Source: a virus. From it: a DNA stretch of 31,365 bases. The DNA is taken from positions 1 to 31,365 of the IMG/VR virus record IMGVR_UViG_3300047311_000469; one strand, written 5' to 3'. The notes beneath the pieces are model-generated. The model did no database searches and was not told the DNA's origin. It saw only the letters and a list, made by a program, of their open reading frames with translations. Both the position numbers and the translations under genes were made by a program. Positions 323 through 30,337 of this stretch are shown one piece after another. How positions within the stretch are numbered: position 1 is the stretch's first letter; each line of letters opens with the position of its first letter.

Positions 323-1633
323 TCATTGTGGATTTGCGATTCTGGCGCGCGAAACTCCGCCAGCGCAAGGCGTAGGCGTAACGGTTGGCGTTGGAGTATT
401 TGTCGGCGTTGCCGTAGCTGTGGCCGTAGCTGTGGCCGTTGGCGTTGGCGTCGGCGGTTCGAGCGCACCAAGGCTTTCAAACGCGGGCTTTCCTGCGTGA
501 AATCCTGGCGATGTGTAGATCAAATTATAATTGTTTCCAGCCGAGTTTACGTAATCCGAAGTCCCTGCCCCACTAGTGATGTCATTGTAGCTTGTAGCGG
601 TGATCCAATCGCCAGCGTTATTGTAAGTCGAGGCATTGTCGCGGAAACGATTGTTAGCTGTAAACGCTGCATTTGCTGTGCTAACCATGTCGATTCCGTC
701 ACCCGTATTGTCAGTGATCATATTGCCGATGATCGTGCCCAATGCTCCATTTCCTGTGTCTTCGTGAATTCCGTCAGCCGTATTGCTAACAATGGTGTTA
801 TACAGGACGCATGGCACCGTCCCGACATCGATAAAGTGGATTCCGTTTCCGCCAGACGTAAAAATAGTGTTCTTCACAAAGACTGGCGTAGCATTCGACG
901 CGAATATCCGTATGCCATCAGTTGGCCCGCCATTTATCCGATTGGCGACTATACGGGCGCCTGCTACCGCAGTTACTTGCACAGCGGCTGTTCCACCGGA
1001 AGCTCCAGACATTGTGATGTCACTATCGAACAAGACACATCGAGAACCGCTAAGGGTCAGACCAACCACGCTTCCAGTGTTACTATCCGTGACCGTGCAA
1101 GACTTCATCACGCTGTCTGAACCTAGATTAAATTGCGGGTTTGATGAGGCTCCTGAAAACTGAATCGTCTCGAATAAAATGAACGCGTTGCCTGATCCAG
1201 CCTCACGTCCACTTGTGTAACTAATCAGTGGCATGTTGGTAGTAATGAGCGGCCCATTACTGTTGGTGCGTCCAAGATAACCATCGCCAATCGTGCTGCT
1301 GTAGCCTCTGATAATGATGGGGCTGGTTACGGTTCCAGAATTAGTAAATGTATCAATACTGCTGGTTCTCGAATACGTGCCAGCCTTAACGTTCACCCTG
1401 TCGCCTGCCACTGCGTTAGTCAGCATCGTAGCCCATGAGCAAGGCGTCGCGGAATTGGTGCAGTTCGCCCATGTGTCCGTGCCTGTGGTTGTGACGTAAT
1501 GCTCGGTGATCGCGCCGAACGCATTGGAGCCGACCGACAAGATCAGGATTGCAGCAATGGCCAGATATGCGCGAAAGCCGCGTGACGCTGAAAGCGCTTT
1601 TACGCGGGTTTCAGGATCGTACTCGATTGTCAT
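323..1633 (-). CDS. Secreted or virion right-handed beta-helix protein with Thr/Pro/Ala-rich tail
   Basis: The 436-residue product has a hydrophobic N-terminal segment (about residues 20-42) ending in a signal-peptidase-like A-F-G-A. A repetitive Asn/Gly/Thr-rich region follows, containing a GDRVNVKAGTY motif and many short beta-strand repeats, typical of pectate-lyase-like parallel beta-helices. The C-terminus is a Pro-Thr/Ala-Thr linker and a short Cys-containing end. Such folds serve as phage tail spikes or depolymerases, or as cell-surface adhesins. The signal-like segment is unusual for a tail spike and would suit an exported lysogenic product. Codons 10-19 lie on a palindromic repeat element (1578-1607). 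It follows the capsid cement gene in the same direction. The start is the first ATG of the frame; no strong ribosome site is visible. Confidence 0.7.
   Translation of the reverse strand: MTIEYDPETRVKALSASRGFRAYLAIAAILILSVGSNAFGAITEHYVTTTGTDTWANCTNSATPCSWATMLTNAVAGDRVNVKAGTYSRTSSIDTFTNSGTVTSPIIIRGYSSTIGDGYLGRTNSNGPLITTNMPLISYTSGREAGSGNAFILFETIQFSGASSNPQFNLGSDSVMKSCTVTDSNTGSVVGLTLSGSRCVLFDSDITMSGASGGTAAVQVTAVAGARIVANRINGGPTDGIRIFASNATPVFVKNTIFTSGGNGIHFIDVGTVPCVLYNTIVSNTADGIHEDTGNGALGTIIGNMITDNTGDGIDMVSTANAAFTANNRFRDNASTYNNAGDWITATSYNDITSGAGTSDYVNSAGNNYNLIYTSPGFHAGKPAFESLGALEPPTPTPTATATATATATPTNTPTPTVTPTPCAGGVSRARIANPQ
1578..1607 (-). repeat. Dispersed palindromic element, copy inside the beta-helix gene
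   Basis: Thirty bases with terminal arms CCGCGT (1578-1583) and ACGCGG (1602-1607), TTTT beside the right arm, and an inner AGCGC/GCGCT-like stem. On the coding strand it reads CGC GTA AAA (Arg-Val-Lys), the same frame used by the other coding copies. It encodes part of the cytoplasmic N-terminus of the beta-helix protein, a tolerant position. Confidence 0.8.
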
Positions 1634-1666
1634 TCCGCTTGTGCGGAGCGTGTCACCGAAAAGTTT

Positions 1667-2089
1667 TTAGAACACGAAGGCCAGCGAGTAGCTGATCGCC
1701 GTGTTGTCGCCGCCGGCAGTCAGCACGGCCGCGTCCAGGCGCACGTAGCGCTTTAGGCCGATCGGAAGCTTGAACTGATAGGCGAACGCGGCAGCCCCGG
1801 AGGAGCTGACGCCAGTGATAACCTGCGCGGGCACGTCGGTCACTGCCGCGAAAGTGATGTTGTCCGCGCTGTCTTTGAGAGTCAGCGTGATCGTTTTTGC
1901 GTCCACCAACGAAGGCGTAGCAGGCACGGACATGAGAAGCTCAACGCCCGGGAAGTCGATTCTCCCTGGATCGTCGTTCCCGCTGTCGATGCTGGTTGTG
2001 AAGTTCGCCGCGGCCGCAGCCGGCAGCGCTTTCGTCACGATGAGGTTCGCGTCTTTGAGCGTTCGCGTGTTTTGGATTACTTGAGCCAT
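1667..2089 (-). CDS. Capsid cement/decoration protein, Bbp16-like
   Basis: This 140-residue protein lies directly downstream of the major capsid gene. ATG at 2087-2089 is chosen because AAGGA sits six bases upstream; the open frame extends further up, but only across the capsid gene. An Asp-Pro-Gly-Arg segment, a repeated beta-strand core with TLTLKDSADN, and a late GLKRYVRLDAAV stretch resemble the Bbp16 family of capsid cement proteins known from Bordetella phage BPP-1 relatives. Such proteins bind the outer capsid after expansion and stabilise it. The stop of the capsid gene is 7 bases away, so the two are likely translated together. The family call rests on remembered sequence pattern, not a search. 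Confidence 0.65.
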   Translation of the reverse strand: MAQVIQNTRTLKDANLIVTKALPAAAAANFTTSIDSGNDDPGRIDFPGVELLMSVPATPSLVDAKTITLTLKDSADNITFAAVTDVPAQVITGVSSSGAAAFAYQFKLPIGLKRYVRLDAAVLTAGGDNTAISYSLAFVF

Positions 2090-2096
2090 AGATTCC

Positions 2097-3092
2097 TTAT
2101 TGGTGCAGTCCCGCGCGCTCAGTCGTGAGCAGTGAGTCTGTGGGCTGGATCGCGACGCCGAGAATGTCCTCGGGCATGTCGGGCCACACGCCGGCAGGTC
2201 CGACGCCTTTGCCCGTTCCGGTGACGTACGTGGTCTGGCGGGATTTCTGCAGCATGTACAGTTGCGCCGCATTGATGAACCAGCGCCATTTCGATTTGTC
2301 CGCGCGAAGTGCCAGAGGCACCTTGCGCCAGAGCGCAGCAGCGACCGCGTCGCTGAGGCCGTGCGAAGATTCGTCCAAATTTTTGATTCGGTAATTGGCC
2401 TTCTGCCGTTCCACGACCAGTCCGAGGTAACTCAGGAAGTTGTTGGCGAACGCCATCAGCTTCTTGCTTGAGTCGTTAGGATCGGAAACTTGCTGCTTGA
2501 TCCATTGATCGCTCATCGTGAACCGGCCGCCGTTGCCGACGAACAGGTGAACGCCTTCGGGATTAACCGGGTTGTCGTCGAGATAGACCAGGTAGGCGCT
2601 GGAAGAGTCCGCGCCGGCGCTGCCGCCGCCGTCGAGCTCGTTGTTGTCCGTATCGACTTGCGTCGAGAGCCCCTTGAACCCGTCAGCTGCGATCGCTGCG
2701 CCGTACCAGATCTGGCTGCCGATGTTGATCACGCTGCCTTTGAGCGTTGCAACCGCTTCGTCAGTGAGAATGTCGCCAGTCTCAAGCTCCGGATTCTCGG
2801 CGCGCGCTGCAATCACGATGTCTTCGTTGATCTGCATTTGCGCATCGAAGATGCACATGGAGCCGGTGTCCCGACGCCATGCAGACTTCGTAAGGGAAAC
2901 GCCGGCGCCGGCTTTGCGGAACGCTCCGGTCGGCAACTCGGTGCGGGTGAGAGTGGTGTAGGTGATTCCCGATTTCGGGAACGCAGGAATCACGGAGAGT
3001 TCGGGCGCGTAGGTGAGAACGCCTTCGATCAGTGCGGAGACGCCAACCCCGCTGCGGGCGGCGAGGTCGAGAAGTGTGTAAGTTCCAGTCAT
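2097..3092 (-). CDS. Major capsid protein
   Basis: The 331-residue product has the size, position and N-terminus expected of a phage major capsid protein. The early DLAARSG...IEG region leads into ELSVIPAF and a TRTELPTGAFRKAG segment, a pattern seen in capsid subunits of the kind paired with Bbp16-like cement proteins. Acidic NPELETGDIL and SQIWYG segments also fit. It assembles the icosahedral shell on the scaffold. Gene order (portal, protease, scaffold, capsid, cement) supports the call strongly. It begins 6 bases after the stop of the scaffold-like gene; no clear ribosome site precedes its ATG, suggesting coupled translation. Confidence 0.8.
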   Translation of the reverse strand: MTGTYTLLDLAARSGVGVSALIEGVLTYAPELSVIPAFPKSGITYTTLTRTELPTGAFRKAGAGVSLTKSAWRRDTGSMCIFDAQMQINEDIVIAARAENPELETGDILTDEAVATLKGSVINIGSQIWYGAAIAADGFKGLSTQVDTDNNELDGGGSAGADSSSAYLVYLDDNPVNPEGVHLFVGNGGRFTMSDQWIKQQVSDPNDSSKKLMAFANNFLSYLGLVVERQKANYRIKNLDESSHGLSDAVAAALWRKVPLALRADKSKWRWFINAAQLYMLQKSRQTTYVTGTGKGVGPAGVWPDMPEDILGVAIQPTDSLLTTERAGLHQ

Positions 3093-3098
3093 AAAATT

Positions 3099-3963: not shown

Positions 3964-3994
3964 CCGAGTAAAAGCCCTCGCGCCCTCCACTCGG
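3964..3994 (+). repeat. Dispersed palindromic element, variant arms
   Basis: Thirty-one bases with arms CCGAGT (3964-3969) and ACTCGG (3989-3994), AAAAG after the left arm and CC before the right arm. It is the same layout as the CCGCGT/ACGCGG elements, but both arms carry a matching change that keeps pairing. The interior holds two GCCCTC units rather than a good hairpin. It lies seven bases from the next copy (4001-4033), in opposite orientation, between the head protease and the small secreted protein. Confidence 0.6.
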
Positions 3995-4000: not shown

Positions 4001-4033
4001 CCGCGTGAATCGGCGCAGCCGATTTTTACGCGG
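4001..4033 (-). repeat. Dispersed palindromic element after the head protease gene
   Basis: Arms CCGCGT (4001-4006) and ACGCGG (4028-4033) enclose an inner hairpin ATCGGC-GCA-GCCGAT and a TTTT beside the right arm. The element abuts the stop codon of the S49 protease gene (4034-4036) exactly and is outside coding sequence. Confidence 0.8.
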
Positions 4034-4867
4034 TCAGAATGCGCGCGCGATCGCTTCGTCGAGCCCGACCACGATCTGATCAGCGAACCCGAGGCGGACC
4101 GCGTCGGCGCCGAGATATACCTGCGCTTCCATGTCGCTGCGTTGGATCTGCGGCCGCGCCATGCTCACTTCGTCGCGGAACATCGCGCCAATTTCGTCAA
4201 CGCGGTTCTGCAGGTAATCGCGCTCGTCATTGGAGAGCGGTTTCCACGGTGCGCCGGCGGTTTTGTATTTGCCGTCCTGGAAAGATTCCATCTTGAGTCC
4301 GAGCAACGACATCTGTACCGACTCATCCAGGAACGCAGCGTAACATCCGATCGAGCCGGCAGCGGAGCTCGGTGAAAGAAAAATTTGGTCTGTCATGCAG
4401 CCTAGCCAGTACGCGGCAGAGCAGCCGGTCGCGAAATACGTTGCCGTGTTCACGATGCTCGAGAGCATTTTAATTCGCATCGCAGTTTCAGGGACGCCCG
4501 GGAACGAGCCGCCTGGGGAATCAATGCTCAGCATGAGGTTGGCGATCCCTTTGTCTTTCGCGATGCGCCCAAGCGCGTTGTCCACGTCGTTGAGGTCGGT
4601 CGCTGAAAAACTGATGCGATCCATTCCCGACAGGTTCTTGTCGATGGGACCGTCGATGTGCACGATCGCTGTCGGCCCGCGGATCTCGAGCAGATCGTCC
4701 GTGCGCTTAACGGCGCGCTCCGGATCCATCTTTTGTACCCCGGGCGGAGTCTGCGGGATCTGGCCGCGCATCACTGCGAGCAGCGCCATTTCCAATCCGG
4801 CGCGGAATGAGGCTTCAACCAGGACAGGCTGGCAAAAGAGTTTCGTGAAAACTTTATCGTAACGCAT
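4034..4867 (-). CDS. S49-family head maturation protease
   Basis: The 277-residue protein matches the SppA/S49 serine peptidase family used by lambda-like phages to process scaffold and head proteins. Visible signature parts are IDSPGG near residues 115-120, a TGCSAAYWLG segment with probable nucleophile Ser-150, the AAGSIGC strand near 169-174, and GKYKTAG with probable general-base Lys-202, followed by PLSNDERDYLQ. Order portal - small protein - protease - scaffold - capsid is typical. The start ATG (4865-4867) lies within the end of the preceding gene (14-base overlap), implying coupled translation. A palindromic element sits immediately after its stop. Confidence 0.88.
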   Translation of the reverse strand: MRYDKVFTKLFCQPVLVEASFRAGLEMALLAVMRGQIPQTPPGVQKMDPERAVKRTDDLLEIRGPTAIVHIDGPIDKNLSGMDRISFSATDLNDVDNALGRIAKDKGIANLMLSIDSPGGSFPGVPETAMRIKMLSSIVNTATYFATGCSAAYWLGCMTDQIFLSPSSAAGSIGCYAAFLDESVQMSLLGLKMESFQDGKYKTAGAPWKPLSNDERDYLQNRVDEIGAMFRDEVSMARPQIQRSDMEAQVYLGADAVRLGFADQIVVGLDEAIARAF

Positions 4868-5198
4868 TGGTCTGTTTCCTCTCCCACTCGATGCGTTTGA
4901 GCTGGTTTTCCCATTGCCTCATCAGCCCGTCGTAACAGCGCTCCATCCTTTCGAGCTGGTGTGCGTTTTCGATCGAGCGCTCGACGTTTGGTTCGTCGTC
5001 GTCGTAGTGCAGATATGCCTCCTCGAGAGCGTGCAGCTGGGTCTCGCATAGGAGCCCGACCTGATCGAACCGTTCGACGTCGTCCCGGAACGACGCAAGC
5101 CGCGCGACGGCGCGAATAGCTTCAAGATCACGCCTCTCTTTTTCCGCGCGAAGACGTTTAATGTCATCGACGGCGGTGTTGGGTGTGATCGTAATCAT
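4854..5198 (-). CDS. Small charged helical protein between portal and protease
   Basis: This 114-residue acidic/basic helical protein starts at ATG 5196-5198, overlapping the portal stop as ATGA. A longer open frame upstream is only the shadow of the portal gene. A heptad-like region (about residues 10-40) and a C-terminal helix rich in Glu, Arg and Gln suggest a coiled coil. I do not recognise the family. In many lambda-like phages a small head-completion or connector protein lies near the portal, so an assembly role is plausible but unproven. Its last codons overlap the protease gene. Confidence 0.65.
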   Translation of the reverse strand: MITITPNTAVDDIKRLRAEKERRDLEAIRAVARLASFRDDVERFDQVGLLCETQLHALEEAYLHYDDDEPNVERSIENAHQLERMERCYDGLMRQWENQLKRIEWERKQTNALR

Positions 5199-6766
5199 GC
5201 TGCCTGTTTCAACTCGTCCCCGTTTTGATCGACTGCTGTCACCTCTGGGTTGGGATCGGCGCCGGGGCTGCCAACAGTCCCAGGTTTCGGCGCGCGCCAC
5301 AGCGGAAGGTTTTCTTTCAGCCGTTGCAGCCACTCGGGCGGAGCTCCCTGCGCTTCCGCCATTTTGATGAACTCGATGGGCTCGCGGATCCACTGCTTCA
5401 TCACGGCGCGGTAATTGAGGCCGCGCGCGTTGCAGTATTCCCTCATCGTGATCAGACCGTTGGCCAGTAGCTCGATCAGGATTTGGTTTTCTTTGCCGTT
5501 GTCGACTGTGACGCGCGGCGGAAGCTGCCAGGCAATTTTCATTGCCCAATTCGGATCCTTGCACTCGGTCAGCCGGCGAATCTTGATGCGGTGCGAGAGA
5601 TATCGGAACGCGATCGGCGTGTTAAAGCGATCGCATAGTCGGTCCCCAAGTATTTGGAAAAACAGATCAGCGCGCGCGAGAATGAAGCGCACGTTCGGGC
5701 CGTTCATCTTCGCGACGTTCCAGAAAAATTCTGGCGGAACGCCCCAGCTCAGACAGGCGTCACGCATCAGCAGATCTGTAATGAACGCTTCGACCAGAGG
5801 CGACGGCGATTGCGCGGTGATCAGCTTTGCGTCGCCTTCCAGGTCGTCGAGGTAAATGATTCCGCCGCCGGCGGTGGCGACCATCTTCTCGATCTGCGCG
5901 CTGTTGGGATCCGGTGCACCGGTGTCTGTCACGCCGGCCTGGCCGACTGCGCCGAACGCGCCTTTCCTGCGGCTTTTCTTTACGCCTTTGAGTGCGAGCG
6001 CGAGAAGCTGCTGCGCTTTGGCGCTGCGCGTCGCAAGTTTTTTGAGCTCGTGAATGTCGACGAGCGGATTAACGGCCTGCGCGAAATCGGTGATCCCGCG
6101 CGTTTGATTAACCGCGTGCGGCTTATACCAATGAATCATCTGCGCCGCAGGGATCGGTGCGTAATGCCCTAAAATGTCGCGCGTCCAGTACGCGGTGGCC
6201 TTGGAATTTTGATTGACCTCGACGCCGTCAAAGATCGGATTTGTGCCGACAACCAGCGGGACCGGTGAGCCGACTTCCTCGCTGTCATACAACTGAAAAC
6301 ACGGCTCTGGATTGCCGGGCGTGCCCCATTCAGGATTCTCGGTTTTCGCGCAGAAGAATTCGCCGCGGATCATGCGCTGCTCGATCGCGGTGGTCTGCGC
6401 TTCGTAGAAATTTCTGCGCCCGGAGAGATCGCAGCGATCGGGAGTCAGCGCGTAATTTTCAAAGTCTGCTTCGGCCGCGGTGTTCCATTCGATGTCCTCG
6501 CTGTCCAGTTGCAGCGAGACGCCTTTTCCGATCGTGTGCCGAGCGATGCCTGCGACGCCTTCTTTCACTACACCAAAATTTTGCCAGGCCCATTCCGCAT
6601 GATCGTTCAGAGCTTTGCGGGTGCGCCGGTTGATGTAGAAGCGCGAATCGGGCGGAATCAAAAACCGTAGATTCGATCGATCAAGAGAACCGTCGATTGC
6701 TTCGGCAAACGCGCGGCTGCCAAACCCCACCCACGAAAACGGCCACCAATTTTTTACAGCAGGCAT
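5195..6766 (-). CDS. Phage portal protein, lambda type
   Basis: The 523-residue product fits the lambda-family portal (phage_portal_2 type) in size and in pattern. After an N-terminal region comes HWYKP...QTRGITDFAQAVNPL, the stretch that in lambda portals contains the invariant RG motif. It is followed by the long helical stem (LMRDACLSWGVPPEFFW and NVRFILARADLFFQ) and a Gly/Pro-rich C-terminus. The portal forms the dodecameric ring at one capsid vertex, through which the terminase pumps DNA. It starts three bases after the stop of the small upstream gene. No strong ribosome site is visible. Confidence 0.88.
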   Translation of the reverse strand: MPAVKNWWPFSWVGFGSRAFAEAIDGSLDRSNLRFLIPPDSRFYINRRTRKALNDHAEWAWQNFGVVKEGVAGIARHTIGKGVSLQLDSEDIEWNTAAEADFENYALTPDRCDLSGRRNFYEAQTTAIEQRMIRGEFFCAKTENPEWGTPGNPEPCFQLYDSEEVGSPVPLVVGTNPIFDGVEVNQNSKATAYWTRDILGHYAPIPAAQMIHWYKPHAVNQTRGITDFAQAVNPLVDIHELKKLATRSAKAQQLLALALKGVKKSRRKGAFGAVGQAGVTDTGAPDPNSAQIEKMVATAGGGIIYLDDLEGDAKLITAQSPSPLVEAFITDLLMRDACLSWGVPPEFFWNVAKMNGPNVRFILARADLFFQILGDRLCDRFNTPIAFRYLSHRIKIRRLTECKDPNWAMKIAWQLPPRVTVDNGKENQILIELLANGLITMREYCNARGLNYRAVMKQWIREPIEFIKMAEAQGAPPEWLQRLKENLPLWRAPKPGTVGSPGADPNPEVTAVDQNGDELKQAA

Positions 6767-7224: not shown

Positions 7225-7259
7225 CCGCGTGGTCCGGCAGCTGCCGGACTTTTACGCGG
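7225..7259 (-). repeat. Dispersed palindromic element after the large terminase gene
   Basis: Arms CCGCGT (7225-7230) and ACGCGG (7254-7259) enclose a perfect 18-base palindrome (GTCCGGCAG/CTGCCGGAC) followed by TTTT. It begins three bases beyond the terminase stop on the minus strand. The copy at 30303-30337 is its near-twin with two differences. Read on the plus strand it looks like an intrinsic terminator (GC hairpin plus TTTT), opposite to local transcription. Confidence 0.85.
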
Positions 7260-7262: not shown

Positions 7263-9491
7263 TCAGCTTTGCTTCTTGGCTTCTTCGGCGGCGAGTTCCT
7301 CTCTCCGCTCTGCGCGCACCTGGTCGAGCCGTTCTTCGATAGTCGGCGCCAACACGCGCTGCATTTTTTCCATGTCGCCCAGGTGATTCAGTTTTCGGCG
7401 AGAATGAAAACCTTTCTTGCCGTCGATCTCGCCGTAAAATTCGTCGGTGAGTTGTTCGCGATAATGTTTGTCGATGTTCGTCGGCAACCACCAGTAGAGT
7501 GGCCCGGTAAGAGTGGCGCCGTTCTTGATGCAATCGTAATAAAGATTTGCCGCGAAGAAATCAGACCACGCCCAGATGAGATCGATCTTGCCATCGAGAA
7601 TCGGCGCAACTCTGATGGTGTTGCCGCGCGTGCGGCTGGCGTCGCCGCCTTTGTACGGCGAAAACATTTCGGAGTTAGCCAGGCAAAACTCATAAACTTC
7701 TTTCGTTTTATCGCCGTCGCCGGAATCGACGAGGCCCGCGGTGACGATGTACTCGCGACGGGCGCGAGTCGTTGAAGCGTTAAAGCGTTGAAGCGTTGAA
7801 GCGGGATCCCAAACGAATTGCCGCGTTTTCCCATTCTGCATCGGCGCGAGGCCGGAAAATTCGAGAATCTGTTGCCAGCTGACGGCTTCGCCCCAATCGA
7901 TGAGCGCGGACCACGTCGGCCAATCGGGATGATCCCAGAGAATTCCCCAGGCGCGGATCCCCCACCAAAAACTGTGCTCCTGGACGTCGACGGTGATCGT
8001 GAGCAGCTCGGGCTCGAGCGGCAGCTGGCCTTGCACGTAGCGGATCGGCGTGCGCGCAATGACGCGATCGAGATCGTCTTCCTTGATCGTGACGCCGGCG
8101 CGCGCGTACGGCAGGCCGAGCGTGAAATTCCAAAACTTAACGAGCGCGGAAACGTCGCCCTTGGCTTCGACGAATTCCTTTGCGATGAGACCCCAGTACT
8201 CAAACGGGTTGTAAGCGGACCAGGCGTGCGCGCTTTCTTTGTCGGCCGGCGCGAACGGATTGTGTTTGACCCACCAGAACCGATCTTCCATCCAGAGCAG
8301 GTCGGTCCATTGGATTTCTTTTTTGCAATGCGCGCACTCGTATGTGGCGCCGCGCTCGAGCGCGTCGATGTCGTACCCGATTTTTACCTTTTCGGTTTTC
8401 GTCGGGTCGTCGATGCGCGGGCGATCTTCGTAAATCGCGAACTGGCTGAACTTGAATTGGCCGGTCGTTTCTTCGCGCCATTTCTCGCGCGCCGTTCCTT
8501 TCGGAAACGGGACGTGATTTTCATCGAACGGAACCAGCTTTTTCTCGATGAAAAACGTGAGCCGCTGCCAGCCGGCTAAATTTGGATCGTACGAAAGCGG
8601 CGATCGACCGGGCTCGACGTCATCCCAGGACGGCGGGACGAATGCTGTAGTCACTTCGCTGCGCGAAGTCTTTTCTGCGCTGCAGTGCGGGCACGGCAGA
8701 TAGCAATAACGCTGCGAGCGGGCGAGAAAAGTTTGCCAGGTAGGTGATAGCTCGCCGCCTTCACCTGGCGTCGAGTTTTCCAGAATCAGCCGGGACGCCG
8801 AAAACAGTTTGGTGCGCGCGATGATCTTGTCGTCGCTGGCTGCGTCGCGATGGATGCTGCGCCGGCAACGGTCTTTTTCATTGACGATCGCGAGCTCGGC
8901 GTTGAACCCGTGCAGATCCGCTTCGGCGCCGCTGCCGATGATGCGCAGGAATTTTCCGCGAAACGATTTGACGAGCGTGGTCCAGAATTTGCGCGATGCC
9001 GGGTGCGGCGGCGGCGCGATCGCGAGCGCGCGGACCGGCTCGCACTGCAGTAAAAATTCATCCAGCTCGCTCCGGACAAACTTCGATGCGCTAGACCTGG
9101 TGGGATCCAGCCAGATCGCCCAGCCGAATCTTTCGGCGATCCAGTACAACGCGACGCAGATTGCAAAAAGCGTTTTCCCGATTCGCGCGCTGGCGCAGAA
9201 CGTGAAGAAATGAACGAACCGCTGCTGAACGATATCGTAGAGGCCACGGAAGATCGGGCAGCGCGACGTGCGCATCCGCCCCGTGCACGGTCCGCCGCTT
9301 TCTTCCGGAATGACGACGTGCTTGTCGATCCATTCGAACATCCGGATCCGCGGCCGCGGCCGGAGCGTGGCGCGAATTAACCCGCGCAGCCAATCAATCG
9401 CATTAAGATAATTTCCCGGAGGAGTCGCCGCGGCGACCCTGTCTCGGCCGACAGCGCTTCTAGCCTGTCGTCTTTTCTGAACGTCGAGCAC
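7263..9491 (-). CDS. Terminase large subunit, GpA family
   Basis: The 742-residue protein matches the GpA-type large terminase: packaging ATPase followed by a nuclease domain that cuts concatemers. A Walker A-like SARIGKT lies at residues 101-107. The expected Walker B position has LAIVNEKDR (about 200-208) instead of the usual VDE-type motif. Two CxxC pairs (CPHC and CAHC) mark inserted zinc-binding parts. TITVDVQEHSFWWG (about 525) is the likely first nuclease acidic motif. It is longer than typical GpA proteins. The start is a GTG at 9489-9491, 32 bases inside the small-terminase gene; the next in-frame ATG (residue 51) would remove conserved N-terminal sequence. An 8-base tandem repeat (7771-7802) lies inside the gene. 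Confidence 0.9.
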   Translation of the reverse strand: MLDVQKRRQARSAVGRDRVAAATPPGNYLNAIDWLRGLIRATLRPRPRIRMFEWIDKHVVIPEESGGPCTGRMRTSRCPIFRGLYDIVQQRFVHFFTFCASARIGKTLFAICVALYWIAERFGWAIWLDPTRSSASKFVRSELDEFLLQCEPVRALAIAPPPHPASRKFWTTLVKSFRGKFLRIIGSGAEADLHGFNAELAIVNEKDRCRRSIHRDAASDDKIIARTKLFSASRLILENSTPGEGGELSPTWQTFLARSQRYCYLPCPHCSAEKTSRSEVTTAFVPPSWDDVEPGRSPLSYDPNLAGWQRLTFFIEKKLVPFDENHVPFPKGTAREKWREETTGQFKFSQFAIYEDRPRIDDPTKTEKVKIGYDIDALERGATYECAHCKKEIQWTDLLWMEDRFWWVKHNPFAPADKESAHAWSAYNPFEYWGLIAKEFVEAKGDVSALVKFWNFTLGLPYARAGVTIKEDDLDRVIARTPIRYVQGQLPLEPELLTITVDVQEHSFWWGIRAWGILWDHPDWPTWSALIDWGEAVSWQQILEFSGLAPMQNGKTRQFVWDPASTLQRFNASTTRARREYIVTAGLVDSGDGDKTKEVYEFCLANSEMFSPYKGGDASRTRGNTIRVAPILDGKIDLIWAWSDFFAANLYYDCIKNGATLTGPLYWWLPTNIDKHYREQLTDEFYGEIDGKKGFHSRRKLNHLGDMEKMQRVLAPTIEERLDQVRAERREELAAEEAKKQS
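7771..7802 (+). repeat. 8-base tandem repeat, four units, inside the terminase gene
   Basis: Four consecutive 8-mers: GTTGAAGC, GTTAAAGC, GTTGAAGC, GTTGAAGC. Because the unit is not a multiple of three, slippage by one unit would shift the frame of the large terminase within its nuclease half. The frame is intact here. Confidence 0.85.
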
Positions 9492-18137: not shown

Positions 18138-18517
18138 GCCGCGACCCTTTCCCACCAGCCCGCGTGATTCTGTATAATCGCGCGCAGCCTTTTTTCATCG
18201 CGCTCATCTTCGCAACCGTTGGCGGCCACGTATTGCAGAAAATCGCGCTCCGGCCCAGCCAGCGAATCGTTAAACAGCTCCACTGGAAAACCCGGCCCTT
18301 CTTGGTCGCGTTGCCGGCTCAACATTTTCTCGAGATTCTCGATTTCAGATTCGAGGTCCGAACGCTCGCTTCTCAGATCCTCGATATCGTCCTCGATTCG
18401 CTCGACGCGCTGTCGCTTCTCTGCAATCTGTTTTTCGACTGGAAACGGTTGCCGTCGCACGAGCCCGATAGCCGGTTCGATTCCTGGAAGAAGCGGTAAT
18501 TGCACCACGTCGCTCAT
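18134..18517 (-). CDS. Coiled-coil protein, 127 residues
   Basis: ATG at 18515-18517 overlaps the Gp37/Gp68 gene stop as ATGA. The middle of the protein (about residues 28-72) is a long heptad-patterned coiled coil (KRQRVERIEDDIEDLRSERS onward). The C-terminal domain contains AGPERDFLQYVAANGCEDE and ends AGWWERVAA. I do not recognise the family. Tight overlap on both sides suggests it works with, or is dosed with, its neighbours. Confidence 0.6.
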   Translation of the reverse strand: MSDVVQLPLLPGIEPAIGLVRRQPFPVEKQIAEKRQRVERIEDDIEDLRSERSDLESEIENLEKMLSRQRDQEGPGFPVELFNDSLAGPERDFLQYVAANGCEDERDEKRLRAIIQNHAGWWERVAA

Positions 18518-19530
18518 CGCGCGACCTCCGCTGTAGCCGCGGCGCTGTGCGCCGTCGGAAATTCATTCCACGAGCGATCATCTAGCAGCCGGCCAGCGCG
18601 TTTTTTCCCGACGCGCATCATGTATTGCGCGCCGTGCTGATCGCACTTCGCATACGTGTGTGCGCCTGCGCACGAAAATAGATGTTCGTGATAACTATCT
18701 GCTGGAACCCACTCACCCCACTGCTTAAAGAAAAACGGAACGTCGGCCTGGATGCATTGATCGCGTAATGACCGCGCCCAATCAGGATGCATCGGACGCG
18801 CGCCGGGCCCGGACTCGCCGCCGACGATCACCCAATGGATCCCGTAGCCATTCTTACCCGGCGTCCACCCGCAGTCGTTAGGGCAGCCCGGGCATCCCTT
18901 GCATAAGGTCACCGGCCCGAGCAACGGCTCGCAGCTCAGAAACCGAACTGCCGCCGGCGTCTCGAGCAACAACGGAATCCGCTCATCCGCGCGCTTCTGA
19001 TCTTCGACACTCACGCCGAGCCATACGTTTTCCGGTGCGCCCCCGTAATGCAGCCAATGAAAAAGCCAGTACCACGCCGCGAGTGGTTCCGTCAGCGAAT
19101 TCTCGACGCGCCCTATCCTGTTACGAAAATTCTCCGGCCGCTTCGTCAGCAACAACCAGTCCAGATTCGGCGTTGCATGAATCAGCGCGAGCAAATCAGC
19201 CAGCCATTCAACCGGAACCTCAGAATCGAGCCAATCAGCCAGCGACGCGCAGAAAACTCGCGGCTTAACGAAATTGTGAGGAACGCCAGCAGGAACCGAA
19301 TGTAACTCCTGAATCCTGCGCTGTTCTGCTTCCCGATTCCACTTCATCGGTTGCTTCCAATAACTCGCGCTGGTGCGATGCCGCTCTTTCCCCTTCCCCC
19401 ATTGCGCCCAGCCGCGCCGTTTCGATTCCCCTTCCGCGTAGCAATGCACGCAGCCAGGTGAAACCTTCGTGCAGCCGATCCACGGATTAAACGTGTGATC
19501 GCACCACTCGATTTTTGAATCGGCGCCCAT
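18514..19530 (-). CDS. Gp37/Gp68 family protein (DUF5131), radical-SAM-like
   Basis: The 338-residue protein shows the hallmarks of the phage Gp37/Gp68 family. SKIEWCDHTFNPWIGC opens the protein, with Cys-20, Cys-27 and Cys-30 in GCTKVSPGCVHCYAE. LDWLLLTKRPENF, NVWLGVSVEDQ, RFLSCEPLLGP, WVIVGGESGPGARPM and PFFFKQWGEW follow in the order typical of the family. The Cys triad suggests an iron-sulfur cluster and radical-SAM-like chemistry, but no substrate is established. GCPGCPNDCG adds an extra metal-binding insert. Its ATG (19528-19530) follows a tiny gene by two bases. Confidence 0.88.
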   Translation of the reverse strand: MGADSKIEWCDHTFNPWIGCTKVSPGCVHCYAEGESKRRGWAQWGKGKERHRTSASYWKQPMKWNREAEQRRIQELHSVPAGVPHNFVKPRVFCASLADWLDSEVPVEWLADLLALIHATPNLDWLLLTKRPENFRNRIGRVENSLTEPLAAWYWLFHWLHYGGAPENVWLGVSVEDQKRADERIPLLLETPAAVRFLSCEPLLGPVTLCKGCPGCPNDCGWTPGKNGYGIHWVIVGGESGPGARPMHPDWARSLRDQCIQADVPFFFKQWGEWVPADSYHEHLFSCAGAHTYAKCDQHGAQYMMRVGKKRAGRLLDDRSWNEFPTAHSAAATAEVAR

Positions 19531-23958: not shown

Positions 23959-24107
23959 GAGAGCCTCCATTCCACATAGCTGACGAGGCCCATGATCAGA
24001 GCGACGCCGGTATCAAAGACGGCCCAAACCAGATCGCCAGTCCACCAACAATGCACGGCTACTCCCGCCGAAAAAATGGCAATAAGAAGTGGAAGCAATC
24101 GCCTCAC
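23955..24107 (-). CDS. 50-residue membrane protein with two hydrophobic segments
   Basis: GTG at 24105-24107 overlaps the stop of the upstream gene as GTGA, and the frame ends in a TGA at 23955-23957 that itself overlaps the next GTG. The peptide has a basic start (RR), a hydrophobic helix (about residues 4-19), a Cys-Trp-Trp turn, and a second hydrophobic helix (about 25-44) ending in an EWRLS tail. This is a hairpin two-helix membrane protein, the size of some phage holins or antiholins, though far from the lysis genes. No family is recognised. Confidence 0.55.
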   Translation of the reverse strand: MRRLLPLLIAIFSAGVAVHCWWTGDLVWAVFDTGVALIMGLVSYVEWRLS

Positions 24108-24442
24108 GCCACAGCCCTCAGTTGCGTCGAGCCGCGTGGCGCAGCTTTTACGCGGTTGATCGTGTGCTTCTCAATCAACGCTTCGATCGCCGCGACCTTC
24201 CACCACTTGAACCCGTCGATGTGCACGTATTCCAGCTTGTGCTTGTTAGCCAGTCGGCGAAACGTCCGGCGTGGATCCTTCCCCGTAATCGGAAAAATCG
24301 CCAGCGCTCCCGCTTCATCCACCAGCTGCAACGATTTCAAAATCTCATCGCGCAACAACGGCCGCAGCTCCGCGACCTCGCGCGCGATCACTTCGCGAAT
24401 AACAGCGACAATCGTCTCCTCGGAGATTTGGATCGCAGCCAT
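24104..24442 (-). CDS. Unknown protein, possibly a winged-helix DNA binder
   Basis: A 112-residue protein with an N-terminal amphipathic helix (TIVAVIREVIAREVAELR). A compact domain with DPRRTFRRLANKHKLEYVHI and GFKWWKVAAIEALIEKH resembles excisionase-like winged helices, where an aromatic-rich wing follows the recognition helix. The C-terminal residues (about 96-103) come from a palindromic repeat element (24132-24155), read in the Arg-Val-Lys frame. Family not recognised. Confidence 0.55.
   Translation of the reverse strand: MAAIQISEETIVAVIREVIAREVAELRPLLRDEILKSLQLVDEAGALAIFPITGKDPRRTFRRLANKHKLEYVHIDGFKWWKVAAIEALIEKHTINRVKAAPRGSTQLRAVA
24132..24155 (-). repeat. Dispersed palindromic element, minimal form
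   Basis: Arms CCGCGT (24132-24137) and ACGCGG (24150-24155) around a short GC-GCA-GC core with TTTT beside the right arm; 24 bases in all, the shortest complete copy. It lies in the 3' end of the gene at 24104-24442 and is translated as Arg-Val-Lys-Ala-Ala-Pro-Arg. Confidence 0.8.
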
Positions 24443-24448: not shown

Positions 24449-24625
24449 TTAAGCTCGATTATCCGGCGTCCGCGCATCGCGTTTCGCGTCCGCTTCGCGC
24501 ATCATCCGGTCCAGCCGCCGCCTTGCCATGTGTGAGTCGATGCGAACGAACGCCATCAAAAGCAAAAACAGCAGCACTAAGCCGCCCACGATCCAAAGGG
24601 TGACTGCGTAGAACGTCACCGCCAT
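24449..24625 (-). CDS. Single-pass membrane protein, 58 residues
   Basis: ATG at 24623-24625 has AGGAGGTGAT six bases upstream, so this start is firm even though it lies inside the end of the preceding gene. One hydrophobic helix (about residues 4-24, TLWIVGGLVLLFLLLMAF) is followed by a basic tail (HMARRRLDRMMREADAKR). It probably sits in the inner membrane with the tail in the cytoplasm. No family is recognised. Confidence 0.6.
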   Translation of the reverse strand: MAVTFYAVTLWIVGGLVLLFLLLMAFVRIDSHMARRRLDRMMREADAKRDARTPDNRA

Positions 24626-25284
24626 TGCGCCATCACCTCCTGCGATTTCTGTTCCAACCACGCATCGAGATTCTCCGGAACGACCGAACCCGGAAGAGGA
24701 ATAGATTCGCGTCCGTTAGCGCTCGCCGCGTGGCCCGCCGCGGCGGGCTTTACGCGGGAAGCGCGCGCGGGCTTTCTGTCGGTATGCGCTCCGGTGTCCC
24801 GCGCGCGCCCATCCATGACATCTTTAGCCGCGTGAGAGCTAGACGCGTGGCGAAGCTTTACGCGGCCTTGCTCTTTTACGCGGGTCTTCAGAGAAACGCG
24901 CGCGGGTTTTATGCCCCCCAGCATTTTCCCGCGCGCGCCCATCTCCGCAGACTTCTTTGGCTTCGCAGAGCCAGCCGCCGGATTCGATGTTTCTGCCGGC
25001 TGATTAAAAAACTCGCCCTCCGGAATCTCCCCGTACTCCAGCGCTCGCAAAAATCTCCCGATCTCCTCACCGTGAACCGGAGCGAGGCCATCACACGCAG
25101 CGTGCAACATCGCGATAATCGCTTCCCTGCCGCGCTTCAGCGCGCGATCGAACGCAAGGTCACGGCCTGTCCGCTCCTGCGAAGCCGAAACACCGTCGAT
25201 GGTCCGTTGAAGCGTTCGCGCAACTTCCAGCGTATATCTCAGCTCCGCGTCGCCAGAAGAAAATTTGTGTCCATTCGTGTCCAT
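24616..25284 (-). CDS. Unknown protein carrying several palindromic elements
   Basis: A 222-residue protein starting at ATG 25282-25284. The first 110 residues form a helical domain (TLEVARTLQRTIDGVSASQE; IGRFLRALEYGEIP). Residues about 120-200 are a low-complexity basic linker in which three palindromic elements are translated, each giving Arg-Val-Lys, and in which a KPAR-containing segment is duplicated. A short C-terminal domain (PENLDAWLEQKSQEVMAQW) closes it. The linker looks like a landing zone for repeats. The function is unknown; the N-terminal helices resemble nothing I can name. Confidence 0.55.
   Translation of the reverse strand: MDTNGHKFSSGDAELRYTLEVARTLQRTIDGVSASQERTGRDLAFDRALKRGREAIIAMLHAACDGLAPVHGEEIGRFLRALEYGEIPEGEFFNQPAETSNPAAGSAKPKKSAEMGARGKMLGGIKPARVSLKTRVKEQGRVKLRHASSSHAAKDVMDGRARDTGAHTDRKPARASRVKPAAAGHAASANGRESIPLPGSVVPENLDAWLEQKSQEVMAQWR
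24726..24757 (-). repeat. Dispersed palindromic element with GC-rich core
   Basis: Arms CCGCGT (24726-24731) and ACGCGG (24752-24757) around the perfect palindrome CCCGCCGCGGCGGG (24734-24747). It is inside the gene at 24616-25284 and read Arg-Val-Lys-Pro-Ala-Ala-Ala-Gly. Confidence 0.8.
24828..24883 (-). repeat. Nested palindromic elements (one inside another)
   Basis: Outer element: CCGCGTGAGAGC (24828-24839) and GCTCTTTTACGCGG (24870-24883) pair through CCGCGT/ACGCGG and GAGC/GCTC. Its loop is occupied by an inner element, ACGCGT (24843-24848) to ACGCGG (24860-24865), with a GC-GAA-GC core. Both are read Arg-Val-Lys in the host gene. Confidence 0.75.
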
Positions 25285-25294
25285 TCGTGGTTGT

Positions 25295-25471
25295 TCAGTT
25301 GAACGACCCAATCGGCACCAAGCACTGCTTGGTGATCTGCACTCCCTGAAGCCTGACAGGAACCGAAAGCGCCAAAACAGCCAGCCGCGCCCGATCATCA
25401 TCCGTCTGCGATCGCAGCTTGGACACCAAGCGATCAAAATTCTCGCGAGTTGTAATCAACGGCTCGCTCAC
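25295..25471 (-). CDS. Small unknown protein, 58 residues
   Basis: GTG at 25469-25471 overlaps the previous stop as GTGA. The product begins with a helical TTRENFDRLVSKLRSQTDDD and ends in a beta-rich VPVRLQGVQITKQCLVPIG. No family is recognised. It ends ten bases before the next gene. Confidence 0.5.
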   Translation of the reverse strand: MSEPLITTRENFDRLVSKLRSQTDDDRARLAVLALSVPVRLQGVQITKQCLVPIGSFN

Positions 25472-25842: not shown

Positions 25843-26075
25843 ACAGTGGCCTTGCACCTTTGAGGTAAACCAGTGATTGCCGGCTGAAATGGCACGTTGT
25901 CCTCGTCCTCGATCGCCACGCCCGGAAACTGCTTCGCTAAAACTTTCAGCACCGTCTCGCGACTGCCGGTAAAAAGCGTTGATCCACGTTGCCCGTTATG
26001 GATCTCAGCCTCCACGTCACCGTTCCCAAGCGGTCGCAACCTGATCTTTATTTCCGGCTCCCGTTCCGCGATCAT
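25839..26075 (-). CDS. Small beta-rich unknown protein
   Basis: ATG at 26073-26075 overlaps the previous stop as ATGA; 78 residues. The pattern [18 protein letters not shown] followed by [19 protein letters not shown] and PGVAI suggests two strands and a helix. No family is recognised. Its stop overlaps the next start in turn, marking a tightly coupled run of small early genes. Confidence 0.5.
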
Positions 26076-26851
26076 GCCGTCGCTGGTTCCTTTCCCTCCG
26101 CGCACATTTTGCGCACCAGATCTTGTGCCCCGAGCTCAAGCGCCGCTTTGAGCGGCGCGAATTTTTTCTCGAATATTGGCCGCGCGATTTCCTTCGCCTT
26201 CGCGAGCGCTTCCCAATAATCGAGCTTTCTCCAATCGACGACCGCAGCGACGCCCGCATCGACGACCGCAGCGACGCCCGCATCGACGACCGCAGCGACG
26301 CCCGCAGCGACGACCGCAGCGACGCCCGCAGCGACGCCCGCAGCGACGCCCGCATCGACGCCCGCAGCGACGCCCGCAGCGACGCCCGCATCGACGAGTT
26401 TCTTACGAGCCGCAGCCCTTAATTCCCACGCCTCATTGCGAGCTTTGCGAATATTCTCGAGTGTCGGATTCTCCCTGAGTAGATCGGCTGCGGCGTCCAA
26501 GCCGGCCAGCGATAGCGCCGCCGGCGCCGCATCGCGCACCACAAAATCACGGATCATTTCCAGCCGGTGCCGTTCCACCGCGCGCGTCGATCGCGTACCA
26601 ACAAGCAGCGGCACTAACGGCTTCAAAAGTCGATTCCGTTCTGCATCGCTCGGCAACCGATCGTTCCAGCTGATCATAAACGAAGTGATTACCGGACACG
26701 CGCATACCGGATGATCGCTGTGCGGCTCGCCTGCGATCCAGGCCACCGCCTCCATCACGCAGACGCCTTGGGCGCGCGCCCCGTGGTTACCCTTCCTAAG
26801 CTCGATCCCATCCAGCCCGAGCAGCGGAAGTGTTTCCGGCAATTGGCTCAT
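26072..26851 (-). CDS. Unknown early protein with a long tetrapeptide repeat
   Basis: A 259-residue protein. The N-terminal domain contains [18 protein letters not shown] followed by [19 protein letters not shown] and [15 protein letters not shown], a conserved block I have seen in uncharacterised phage and actinobacterial proteins. A helical [12 protein letters not shown] then leads to 13 tandem four-residue units (Ala/Gly/Val/Asp) encoded by 26236-26391, and a C-terminal amphipathic domain ([20 protein letters not shown]). The Cys and His residues in the conserved block suggest a metal site. ATG at 26849-26851 overlaps the previous stop. Confidence 0.62.
26236..26391 (+). repeat. 12-base tandem repeat, 13 units
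   Basis: Thirteen consecutive units of CGACG(A/C)CCGCA(G/T) with variation only at positions 6 and 12. The unit is a multiple of three, so copy-number change lengthens or shortens the encoded Ala-Gly-Val-Ala/Asp helix or linker without frameshift. Confidence 0.95.
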
Positions 26852-27769: not shown

Positions 27770-27952
27770 ATGATCACGGCTGTCGTCGTCTGTTTAATTG
27801 TCCTGTTATTGATCTTGATCGACGGCCGTCTCGCGCGCATGAAAAAAATCGAGCGCGAGATACTCAAAGAAATCAAGACTTCTAACGACCGCCTGAACGA
27901 AGCCAACAAGGCGCTGCAGTGGATGGTCGACAACTCGCCGCCCCGACAATGA
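27770..27952 (+). CDS. Small membrane-anchored coiled-coil protein
   Basis: A 60-residue protein with an N-terminal hydrophobic helix (about residues 2-17, ITAVVVCLIVLLLILI) and a charged coiled coil (MKKIEREILKEIKTSNDRL). The start is ten bases after the repressor stop, and its TGA overlaps the next start. The layout recalls small membrane proteins expressed from prophages, possibly for exclusion; no family is recognised. Confidence 0.6.
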   Translation: MITAVVVCLIVLLLILIDGRLARMKKIEREILKEIKTSNDRLNEANKALQWMVDNSPPRQ

Positions 27953-28275
27953 AGACCCTTTTCAAATTCTTAGGCGCTATCGCGTTGATTGTCTTGATAA
28001 TTGCAATCGTCGCGAAGGTTCAGAACGAAAGCGAAACGCGCGCAACACAACAGATCGCCACTGAGCAGCGCGAAAACGAGGACGCGATTAAACAGCGCCA
28101 TGTGCTAGTCGGCATGAGCGCGGCCCAAGTTCGCCAGGCTTGGGGCGAACCAAAGCACGTCATTCGCACCACCGCCGAGAGCCACGAGTACGAAGAATGG
28201 TCCTACGGCGCGCACGCGACCCTTTCATTCGTCGACGGCGTCTTCAAATCCGGAACTCGCGACGACGGCAAATGA
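27949..28275 (+). CDS. Membrane-anchored BamE/SmpA-like domain protein
   Basis: ATG at 27949-27951 overlaps the previous stop as ATGA. The 108-residue product has an N-terminal membrane anchor (about 4-24), a charged linker (about 25-48), and a small domain. Its sequence VLVGMSAAQVRQAWGEPKHV followed by HEYEEWSYG and LSFVDGVF matches the SmpA/OmlA (BamE) pattern GMS..eVr..wG.P...W.Yg...l.F.dG. No lipobox Cys is present, so it stays anchored in the inner membrane facing the periplasm. Sitting between repressor and integrase it is probably expressed in lysogens and may alter the host envelope or block superinfection (inference). Confidence 0.7.
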   Translation: MKTLFKFLGAIALIVLIIAIVAKVQNESETRATQQIATEQRENEDAIKQRHVLVGMSAAQVRQAWGEPKHVIRTTAESHEYEEWSYGAHATLSFVDGVFKSGTRDDGK

Positions 28276-29540: not shown

Positions 29541-29716
29541 AGCCGGTCGACTGGACGAAGCTTAGTTTTGAAGAGCGAATGAAGCTGCGCGCCGAACGCC
29601 GCGCCAGTCCCGAATACAAGCACGAGCTACAAATGCGGCTCGAAGCTATCGAACGCCGCCGACGCCATCACGAGATTTGGCGAGCGATTCGATTATTCGA
29701 AGGAAGCCAAAGTTAA
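29537..29716 (+). CDS. Small basic protein after integrase
   Basis: ATG at 29537-29539 overlaps the integrase stop as ATGA; 59 residues. It is highly charged and helical (WTKLSFEERMKLRAERRAS; RLEAIERRRRHHEIWRAIRLF). The position directly between integrase and attachment site and the basic charge suggest a recombination directionality or DNA-bending factor, but it lacks a recognisable excisionase fold. Its last codons overlap the left arm repeat at 29711. Confidence 0.6.
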   Translation: MKPVDWTKLSFEERMKLRAERRASPEYKHELQMRLEAIERRRRHHEIWRAIRLFEGSQS

Positions 29717-29730
29717 CAAAAAGTGAACAC
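29711..29730 (+). repeat. Attachment-region arm repeat, left copy
   Basis: AGTTAACA, four bases, GTGAACAC. The same 16 defined bases recur at 29898-29917. Each copy itself contains two half-sites of the form AGTTAACA / GTGAACA about 11 bases apart, as in integrase arm-type sites. Confidence 0.75.
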
Positions 29731-29843
29731 TCAAAGATCCATTTCTTTGCGCGTGTTTGTTTTGTGATTTCGGGTGCCGGCGCGATCTCGCTCTGAAAAC
29801 CGACACGGCCAGACAAAATCCCGAATCTAATCGCTCCCAAAAA

Positions 29844-29871
29844 TCGGGTTCAAGTCCCGCCCCGAGCACCA
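29844..29871 (+). other. attP core: 3' end of a tRNA gene
   Basis: TCGGG-TTCAAGT-CCCGC is a T-arm with the standard TTCRANY loop (29849-29855). It is followed by a seven-base acceptor half, CCCGAGC, then A and CCA at 29869-29871. The matching 5' acceptor half and D-arm are absent upstream, so this is a tRNA 3' fragment, not a gene. Integration here would rebuild a host tRNA. The homologous core may extend upstream toward 29818. One T-stem pair is mismatched. The 157 bases between 29717 and the core's loop hold no other gene. Confidence 0.8.
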
Positions 29872-29897
29872 ATGAAAGCGCATCGTTTTCGCTGAGA

Positions 29898-29917
29898 AGT
29901 TAACAGTTCGTGAACAC
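29898..29917 (+). repeat. Attachment-region arm repeat, right copy
   Basis: AGTTAACA, four bases, GTGAACAC, matching the left copy at 29711-29730 and lying on the other side of the tRNA core. Confidence 0.75.
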
Positions 29918-29923
29918 CATTTT

Positions 29924-29985
29924 TGGGTGAAGTTTACCTAACGGCTTCCCAGGCGGCGCGCGATCCTGGGTGAAGTTTCCCTAAC
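29924..29985 (+). repeat. Pair of 19-base direct repeats next to attP
   Basis: TGGGTGAAGTTTACCTAAC (29924-29942) and TGGGTGAAGTTTCCCTAAC (29967-29985) differ at one base and start 43 bases apart, about four helical turns. They are candidate binding sites for integrase, excisionase or a host bending factor. No gene is present from 29717 to 30029. Confidence 0.8.
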
Positions 29986-29989
29986 TTTT

Positions 29990-30009
29990 CGCGCGCAGCT
30001 CAGCGCGCG
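29990..30009. terminator. GC-rich hairpin downstream of the lysis-side genes
   Basis: CGCGCGC (29990-29996) pairs with GCGCGCG (30003-30009) around a six-base loop, 20 bases beyond the stop of the last leftward gene on this side. No U-run follows on the minus strand, so termination is only a possibility. Confidence 0.35.
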
Positions 30010-30029
30010 AGGGCGTAATCAGGATCGCA

Positions 30030-30257
30030 TCACCAGCCCCTTGAACCGTTGCGGCGGACGTAGAAGCTCAGGTCCGGCCACCAGGTCTGCCGTTTCATTA
30101 TCTCGATCACTCTGAAGGATTCGCCGCGCTCGGCCGCGGTCACGATCGCTTTTGCATCGGTGGCTTTCATCGACACTGAAACAGAAGCCTCTTCGCCTTC
30201 GCGCACGCAGCTTTCTTCCAGCGTATCCAACGCCCAAGCTTTAGTAGCGGTGCTCAC
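30030..30257 (-). CDS. Small unknown protein at the end of the lysis-side operon
   Basis: GTG at 30255-30257 (GGGG four bases upstream) gives 75 residues; a TTG at 30297-30299 would add 14 residues but lies in a palindromic-element remnant. The product contains WALDTLEESCVREGEE, SVSMKATDAKAIVTAAERG and a C-terminal KRQTWWPDLSFYVRRNG. No family is recognised. It is the last leftward gene before the attachment region. Confidence 0.45.
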   Translation of the reverse strand: MSTATKAWALDTLEESCVREGEEASVSVSMKATDAKAIVTAAERGESFRVIEIMKRQTWWPDLSFYVRRNGSRGW

Positions 30258-30282
30258 CTTTCCCCGCGCGGACGAGTCAACG

Positions 30283-30337
30283 CCGCGTAAAAGAGCCAAA
30301 GGCTGCGTAAAAGTCCGGCAACTGCCGGACCACGCGG
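30283..30337 (+). repeat. Palindromic element (30303-30337) with an adjacent partial copy
   Basis: The complete copy has arms CTGCGT (30303-30308) and ACGCGG (30332-30337) and a GTCCGGCA-A-CTGCCGGAC-type hairpin; it differs from the 7225-7259 copy at two positions. Directly upstream, CCGCGTAAAAGAGCC (30283-30297) with GGCT after an AAA loop is a second copy lacking its right arm. On the minus strand the complete copy is a GC hairpin followed by TTTT, eight bases after the stop of the gene at 30345-30560, so it may work as an intrinsic terminator. Confidence 0.7.

Follow-up and report, generated by a model that had tools for sequence, protein, structure and literature searches.

Palindromic elements in a tailed phage genome

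The window analysed here is the whole of one IMG/VR virus record (IMGVR_UViG_3300047311_000469; 31,365 bases), which derives from a tailed soil phage with most of its genes on the minus strand. Head-protease, portal and large terminase genes are present (Table 1), together with a match to a major head protein and with genes for ParB-like and HNH proteins. Distributed among these genes are about nine copies of a short palindromic element, 24 to 56 bases long, which lie between genes, in frame within open reading frames (ORFs), or nested in one another. Copies or remnants proved to be present at every position at which an initial annotation of the sequence had placed them. The near-identical contig IMGVR 3300046517_002301 carries one further copy and extends the window by about 12 kb, so that the phage genome measures at least about 43 kb.

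Table 1. Copies of the palindromic element and structural genes in the window
Feature	Position	Strand	Context
Element CCGCGTAAAAGCGCTTTCAGCGTCACGCGG	1578..1607	-	in frame (TRVKALSASRG), near start of ORF 323-1633 (-)
Diverged element CCGAGTAAAAG...CACTCGG	3964..3994	+	tail-to-tail partner of 4001
Element CCGCGTAAAAATCGGCTGCGCCGATTCACGCGG	4001..4033	-	directly after stop codon of head-protease gene; DNA fold z -4.2
Element CCGCGTAAAAGTCCGGCAGCTGCCGGACCACGCGG	7225..7259	-	3 nt past stop codon of large terminase gene; fold z -3.3
Shortest element CCGCGTAAAAGCTGCGCCACGCGG	24132..24155	-	in frame (NRVKAAPRG), near C-terminus of ORF 24104-24442
Element CCGCGTAAAGCCCGCCGCGGCGGGCCACGCGG	24726..24757	-	in frame (SRVKPAAAGHAA), ORF 24616-25437
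Outer element, second element nested in its inner hairpin	24828..24883	-	in frame (TRVKEQGRVKLRHASSSHAA), ORF 24616-25437
Nested inner copy CCGCGTAAAGCTTCGCCACGCG	24844..24865	-	
Partial copy, 5' arm and hairpin CCGCGTAAAAGAGCCAAAGGCT	30283..30304	+	without its own 3' arm; runs into 30303 copy
Element CTGCGTAAAAGTCCGGCAACTGCCGGACCACGCGG	30303..30337	+	core nearly identical to opposite-strand copy at 7225
Head-protease gene	4034-4867		
Portal gene	5195-6766		
Large terminase gene	7263-9491		

The copies at 3964 and 4001 form an inverted pair with a spacing of 6 nt, the first of them having its arms changed pairwise (CCGAGT/ACTCGG) and its inner hairpin lost (fold z -0.6). When folded as single-stranded DNA, the copies at 4001, 7225, 24726 and 24828 adopt the expected two-storey hairpin, which the copy at 1578 shows in the centroid structure only; the predicted fold of the 24132 copy departs from the expected one and is not significant (z -1.0), and the segment 30283-30337 folds as two hairpins enclosed by outer arms.

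Four copies (1578, 24132, 24726 and 24828) lie inside ORFs, all of which are predictions, and each is read as CGC-GTA-AAA, that is, as R-V-K. The same frame is used by six of the seven same-strand intragenic copies across all phage loci, and the third reading frame through the element would meet a TAA stop. The position of the 1578 copy near the start of its ORF depends on the ATG at 1633 being the true start. A search with element-bearing phage ORFs, two of the window's among them, returned no IMG/VR homologues beyond the query's own contig and no empty homologue of those ORFs.

A constant internal loop in a variable palindrome

Sequences from many genomes define a frame that consists of CGT, AAA, a variable hairpin, C, ACG, the rest of the arm and a pyrimidine. 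The inner hairpin opens with A or G and usually closes with the complementary T or C, and the pyrimidine follows ACGCGG in 19 of 20 phage copies, in all 109 from Verrucomicrobiota and in 47 of 48 from Patescibacteria. The initial annotation had described a fixed frame with constant AAAA and CC beside arms CCGCGT/ACGCGG, and with exchangeable, unrelated cores. The fixed frame stands, but its flanking constants shrink to AAA and a single C; the arms are present, yet not fixed, since paired changes such as that at 3964 occur; and the cores are exchangeable but not all unrelated, as those at 7225 and 30303, on opposite strands, agree at 17 of 18 bases. Across genomes, the outer arms take several forms that preserve pairing (CCGCGT, CCACGT, CCCCGT, CGGCGT).

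The pattern CCGCGTAAA-N(4-45)-CACGCGG matches the window 8 times, with overlaps, and is absent from 300 dinucleotide shuffles, while the exact form CCGCGTAAAAN{4,30}CACGCGG occurs 4 times against none in 100 shuffles. When any complementary 6-nt arm is allowed around CGTAAA...C, the window holds 8 cases, whereas shuffles average 0.08 and never exceed 2. The loop was then considered on its own in host loci from which everything fetchable by the search pattern had been removed beforehand, by counting all structures in which a 3-nt/1-nt internal loop separates an outer stem (5 pairs or more) from an inner one (4 pairs or more). Out of 256 possible loops, AAA opposite C accounts for 33 of the 90 structures found, the next loop for at most 5, and shuffled sequences give none. 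The outer arms of these 33 structures include CCACGT, TCGCGT, CGGCGT, CCCCGT and others, which indicates that the outer stem varies with pairing kept and that CGT/ACG and the AAA/C loop are constant. Chance GC palindromes, which the initial annotation had already judged unable to explain the frame, are ruled out by the shuffle counts and the loop test.

Occurrence in phages and bacteria

The checks by which the initial annotation had proposed to refute the observation left it standing: the frequency of the motif in shuffled sequence is zero, and it recurs in many other genomes. The shorter frame, the covarying arms, the in-frame ORF copies, the spread in Verrucomicrobiota and Patescibacteria and the placement at tRNA 3' ends go beyond that annotation. 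A scan of IMG/VR gave 81 stretches, part of which have palindromic cores and constitute the family, and the remainder of which look like chance matches. Diverse soil phages are among the carriers, probably including phages of Verrucomicrobiota; other soil phages have up to three strict copies each, with new cores, and the window's near-identical contig has four. Near-identical phage contigs carry the same copies wherever they overlap the window. Two more distant relatives (L265 and L266, with 80% and 69% terminase identity) are without the window's copies, and the junctions are not alignable. Both have a different hairpin family (GGCGGGTGATCGC...CGGCCCGCC) behind the terminase gene, near the place of the window's 7225 copy (about 3940-4000 in L265 and about 12500 in L266).

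In bacteria, 113 loci, mostly from Verrucomicrobiota and Patescibacteria, emerged when copies with a TTCG loop were sought in one genome per species. Strict copies counted over whole genomes number 41-43 in Limisphaerales palsa_1371, the upper end of the range in Verrucomicrobiota, and 27 in Verrucomicrobia GSL.Bin9. Matches occur in 22 of 289 genomes of Verrucomicrobiota, with true cases, having palindromic cores, fewer at about ten; in Patescibacteria, the CCACGT form gives 34 matches in 15 of 240 genomes, against none for a reversed control pattern. A control set of 249 Pseudomonadota genomes contains 7 matches, none with a palindromic core. Most genomes of both carrier phyla are without elements. 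Searched against Rfam 15 at the gathering score, the window has no match, and the host loci match tRNA, rRNA, tmRNA, RNase P, intron and riboswitch families, with no match to the element itself.

Copies in Verrucomicrobiota are arranged as head-to-tail tandems with spacers down to 4 nt, as inverted pairs and as nested copies, and this is mirrored in the window by the inverted pair 3964/4001, the nested pair at 24828 and the partial copy that runs into a full one at 30283/30303. Roughly one half of the phage copies and one third of those in Verrucomicrobiota lie within predicted ORFs. An element-rich region of one Verrucomicrobiota genome (G032 contig 49, 43-62 kb; L243) contains small ORFs in a cassette-like arrangement and, between the elements, many more repeat types (for example CTCCGCCGCGGCTTACGATG and GGCGCACCGCCCACTGAAAA).

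Stable RNA genes of Patescibacteria

In Patescibacteria, the copies concentrate on stable RNA genes, including positions near rRNA and tmRNA genes. At tRNA genes the register is exact, the first CC of the element being the CC that follows the discriminator base. A search pattern composed of the T-loop and CCRCGTAAA lists 63 matches, spread over 29 of 380 genomes and, with one exception, of the same 30-nt length, against 3 for the control; since the pattern cannot prove that each tRNA gene is intact, the count is best given as about 60 tRNA genes. Within the host loci, 22 of 65 tRNAs end in CCNCGTAAA, and four carry a reversed element at the 5' end, two of these being one gene seen in overlapping loci. 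The tRNA ends of Verrucomicrobiota give 8 matches in 289 genomes, out of the tRNA register and at chance level. In the RNase P RNA of both Zambryskibacteria and Peregrinibacteria, elements occupy a corresponding region, behind GUCCGRRCAC, and one RNase P gene carries copies on both strands. An open-access search, which does not cover the whole literature, found no report of such repeats in Patescibacteria or at tRNA ends.

A compound unit, in which one element is nested in reverse within another and an extra TTTACGTG half is added, occurs at several Patescibacteria loci (L278, L281-L284, L326, L340 and L343), often directly on a tRNA 3' end. In Kerfeldbacteria (L259), an element at 2310-2339 is separated by about 120 nt from a group I intron match beside a 16S rRNA gene. 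A case first taken for an insertion into a helix of 23S rRNA (L341) was dropped, as the copy appears to sit in an intervening sequence of the gene.

These placements bear on the main rival explanation, according to which the elements are functional RNA hairpins kept by selection for 3' end protection, processing or termination, with the AAA/C loop binding a ribonuclease or an RNA-binding protein. Its case is strongest for the tRNA ends, which are capped in register, and it extends to the copies near rRNA and tmRNA and inside RNase P RNA, to the two window copies that lie 0-3 nt behind the stop codons of structural genes, and to the other hairpins found in L265 and L266 downstream of the terminase gene, at roughly the corresponding position. 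Orientation, however, is mixed: copies occupy both strands of a single RNase P gene, run along and against tRNAs, and run with and against the genes of Verrucomicrobiota. Such hairpins would not predict tandem and nested copies either, and the share of copies within predicted ORFs and the absence of elements from most genomes of the same phyla are likewise hard to accommodate. Mixed orientation, copies within ORFs and patchy distribution argue against an RNA hairpin as the general answer, which we regard as unlikely. As for intrinsic terminators, inspection revealed that the hairpin, read in the sense of the phage genes, is not followed by a T run, and they were rejected.

It could also be supposed that the copies are double-stranded DNA binding sites of a phage or host protein, serving as operator, partition or packaging sites, given that near-palindromic constant arms are repeated through a phage genome that encodes ParB-like and HNH proteins. 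The spread of lengths from 24 to 56 bases, the paired changes of the arms and the overlap of copies with tRNA and RNase P genes of unrelated bacteria make this extremely improbable.

Integron-integrase genes of Verrucomicrobiota

Several copies in the Verrucomicrobiota genome G242 lie in broken integron-integrase genes. At the filled sites the sequence reads GTCTCC joined to CGCGTAAA, and in the corresponding intact, unfilled gene of the same genome GTCTCC joined to ACATT. Since several of the integrase remnants share both flanks and are partly duplicates, the broken copies of G242 are not independent events. Multiple broken and internally deleted integron-integrase genes are seen at L268, L269, L270, L271 and L273 (G242 and G117), with elements, often as inverted pairs, at a junction that precedes the catalytic tyrosine motif by a few codons.

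Integron-type integrases recombine folded hairpins, and their attC sites are recognised as folded strands through unpaired bases, have a variable terminal structure, contain GTTRRRY/RYYYAAC boxes and are longer than the element. The copies might accordingly be attC-like folded single-strand sites of the integron-type tyrosine recombinases of Verrucomicrobiota, their variable hairpin corresponding to the variable terminal structure. Of 18 genomes tested, 11 have integron integrases above the curated cut-off; in G242, G117, G114, G037 and G286, many copies are located within or next to integrase genes, whether intact or broken; and the element-rich region of G032 is full of small, cassette-like ORFs. 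Yet the element is much shorter than attC and inspection found no GTTRRRY/RYYYAAC boxes in it or in its immediate flanks, although no dedicated attC search was made; none of six Patescibacteria genomes tested has an integrase above the cut-off; the integrase contig of G032 is without a strict element; and several of the G242 remnants are duplicates. We consider this origin very unlikely.

Comparison with known palindromic repeats

The initial annotation had likened the copies to repetitive extragenic palindromic (REP) sequences and Rickettsia palindromic elements (RPEs) without assigning them to a known family, a judgement that the data support. The REPs tagged by GTAG are palindromes of 20-40 bp that are dispersed, paired, clustered and mostly intergenic, and they are known from bacteria of the Planctomycetes-Verrucomicrobia-Chlamydiae (PVC) group; in the long ones, a small bulge separates a basal from an apical stem. 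Their tag sits 0-2 nt 5' of the hairpin foot, with copies flanking a RAYT/Y1_Tnp gene (PMC3733652, PMC6006769). The element resembles them as a dispersed, many-copy palindrome with pairs and clusters and in its stem-bulge-stem form, but differs by the absence of a GTAG/GTGG tag, by the constant AAA/C loop and by the free apical hairpin.

Another possibility is that the copies are ordinary GTAG-type REPs that have drifted and are moved by a Y1 (RAYT/TnpA-REP) transposase. Y1_Tnp genes are present in 17 of 22 element-bearing genomes, and the bulged long-hairpin architecture resembles that of long REPs (PMC6006769). The remaining five genomes have no Y1_Tnp match, although these are metagenome-assembled genomes. 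None of 30 Y1_Tnp loci, inspected over 1.5 kb on each side where the contig permitted, holds an element with complementary arms, and no conserved GTAG/GTGG tetranucleotide exists in the flanks of the phage, Patescibacteria or Verrucomicrobiota copies, which leaves this possibility distinctly unlikely. As far as transposases beside copies are concerned, no Y1_Tnp gene was found next to them, and integron integrases stand beside some copies.

A second class of REPs, tagged by CGTC, includes RPE-4 and RPE-6 of Rickettsia and dRS3 of Neisseria and has no dedicated transposase; its members carry the CGTC tag on one side and finish on the other in an unpaired tail, which is mostly CCA, and the class was reported from Proteobacteria, Chlorobi, Bacteroidetes, Spirochaetes and Thermotogae, not from Verrucomicrobiota or Patescibacteria (PMC3733652). 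These repeats are short palindromes as well, and the class includes REP-like RPEs placed in frame inside ORFs, but the element has CGTAAA and no CGTC, a 3' end of GG-pyrimidine, and otherwise different constant sequence and structure. RPEs occur in coding sequence (PMC3733652), and the window has four copies inside predicted ORFs, in the fixed R-V-K frame; the two kinds of element have no common sequence, and the element is also found at tRNA ends, in RNase P RNA and in phages. TIGR arrays, which consist of tandem 8-12-nt box C/D repeats with spacers of about 9 nt beside tas genes and occur in phages and Patescibacteria (PMC12045711), likewise present short repeats in these genomes, some with palindromic stems. 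They were rejected as a model, since their architecture differs and the variable part of the element is self-complementary and dispersed. The element looks like a relative of REP and Rickettsia palindromic repeats that is apparently undescribed, a non-exhaustive literature search having found no paper that describes it.

A proposed structure-recognised mobile palindrome

We lean, with modest confidence, towards the reading that the copies form a REP-like family of short non-autonomous palindromic repeats, recognised through their frame and multiplying in Verrucomicrobiota, Patescibacteria and phages. The constant loop, the free hairpin, the tandem, inverted and nested copies and the tolerance within genes would all fit a mobile palindrome that is recognised by its structure. 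In such a scheme, a folded single strand would have an outer stem with CGT/ACG at its end, followed by an asymmetric internal loop of AAA opposite C and by a free apical hairpin; a putative enzyme made by the host would recognise the frame (CGT-AAA / C-ACG) but ignore the apical hairpin, which might thus change freely provided that pairing holds; and the enzyme would place a copy with its first CC on a CC of the target. The integrase junction, together with the tRNA and RNase P cases, suggests that copies may join a CC in this way. Self-folding and readthrough as R-V-K would make a copy tolerable behind stop codons, in ORFs and in structural RNAs, and the phage may have acquired the element from its host.

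Several observations weigh against this reading. Neither a transposition event nor a target duplication was observed, nor a cleanly empty site between close relatives, and no mobilising gene was recognised beside the elements. Phage and Patescibacteria genomes usually hold only a few copies apiece, and in a prophage search for the host the terminase relatives in Verrucomicrobiota were only distant, at no more than 33% identity. Moreover, a function, and not past insertion, could account for the tRNA register in Patescibacteria, and common descent or duplication, and not independent insertion, for the RNase P and integrase-gene sites.

On a more specific form of the favoured reading our judgement is evenly balanced: that the copies represent a further REP-like superfamily, defined by the loop CGT-AAA/C-ACG and not by an end tag, which occurs in Verrucomicrobiota, Patescibacteria and phages, and that in Patescibacteria a so far undescribed enzyme places it precisely on the 3'-terminal CC of tRNA genes and within RNase P RNA. 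The usual definition of short palindromic repeats relies on a sequence tag together with a linked transposase; here, the definition by an internal loop with a free apical hairpin and the lack of a linked Y1 transposase in the loci tested allow the spread of palindromes to be tested in a new setting. In Patescibacteria, the position of a hairpin at the CC of tRNA 3' ends also raises the question of how it relates to tRNA 3' maturation, or whether an insertion enzyme makes use of tRNA ends.

Other features of the window

A DUF5131 gene (18514-19530) is in part about 80-86% identical at the DNA level to genes of mycobacteriophages and Gordonia phages, and this stretch is the sole near match to the phage collection within the first 25 kb of the window. 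The terminase gene contains a 25-nt imperfect inverted repeat (8503-8569). A tandem repeat with a step of about 12 bases is present at 26234-26397 within ORF 26072-26851 and recurs at the end of the related contig 3300046517_002301.

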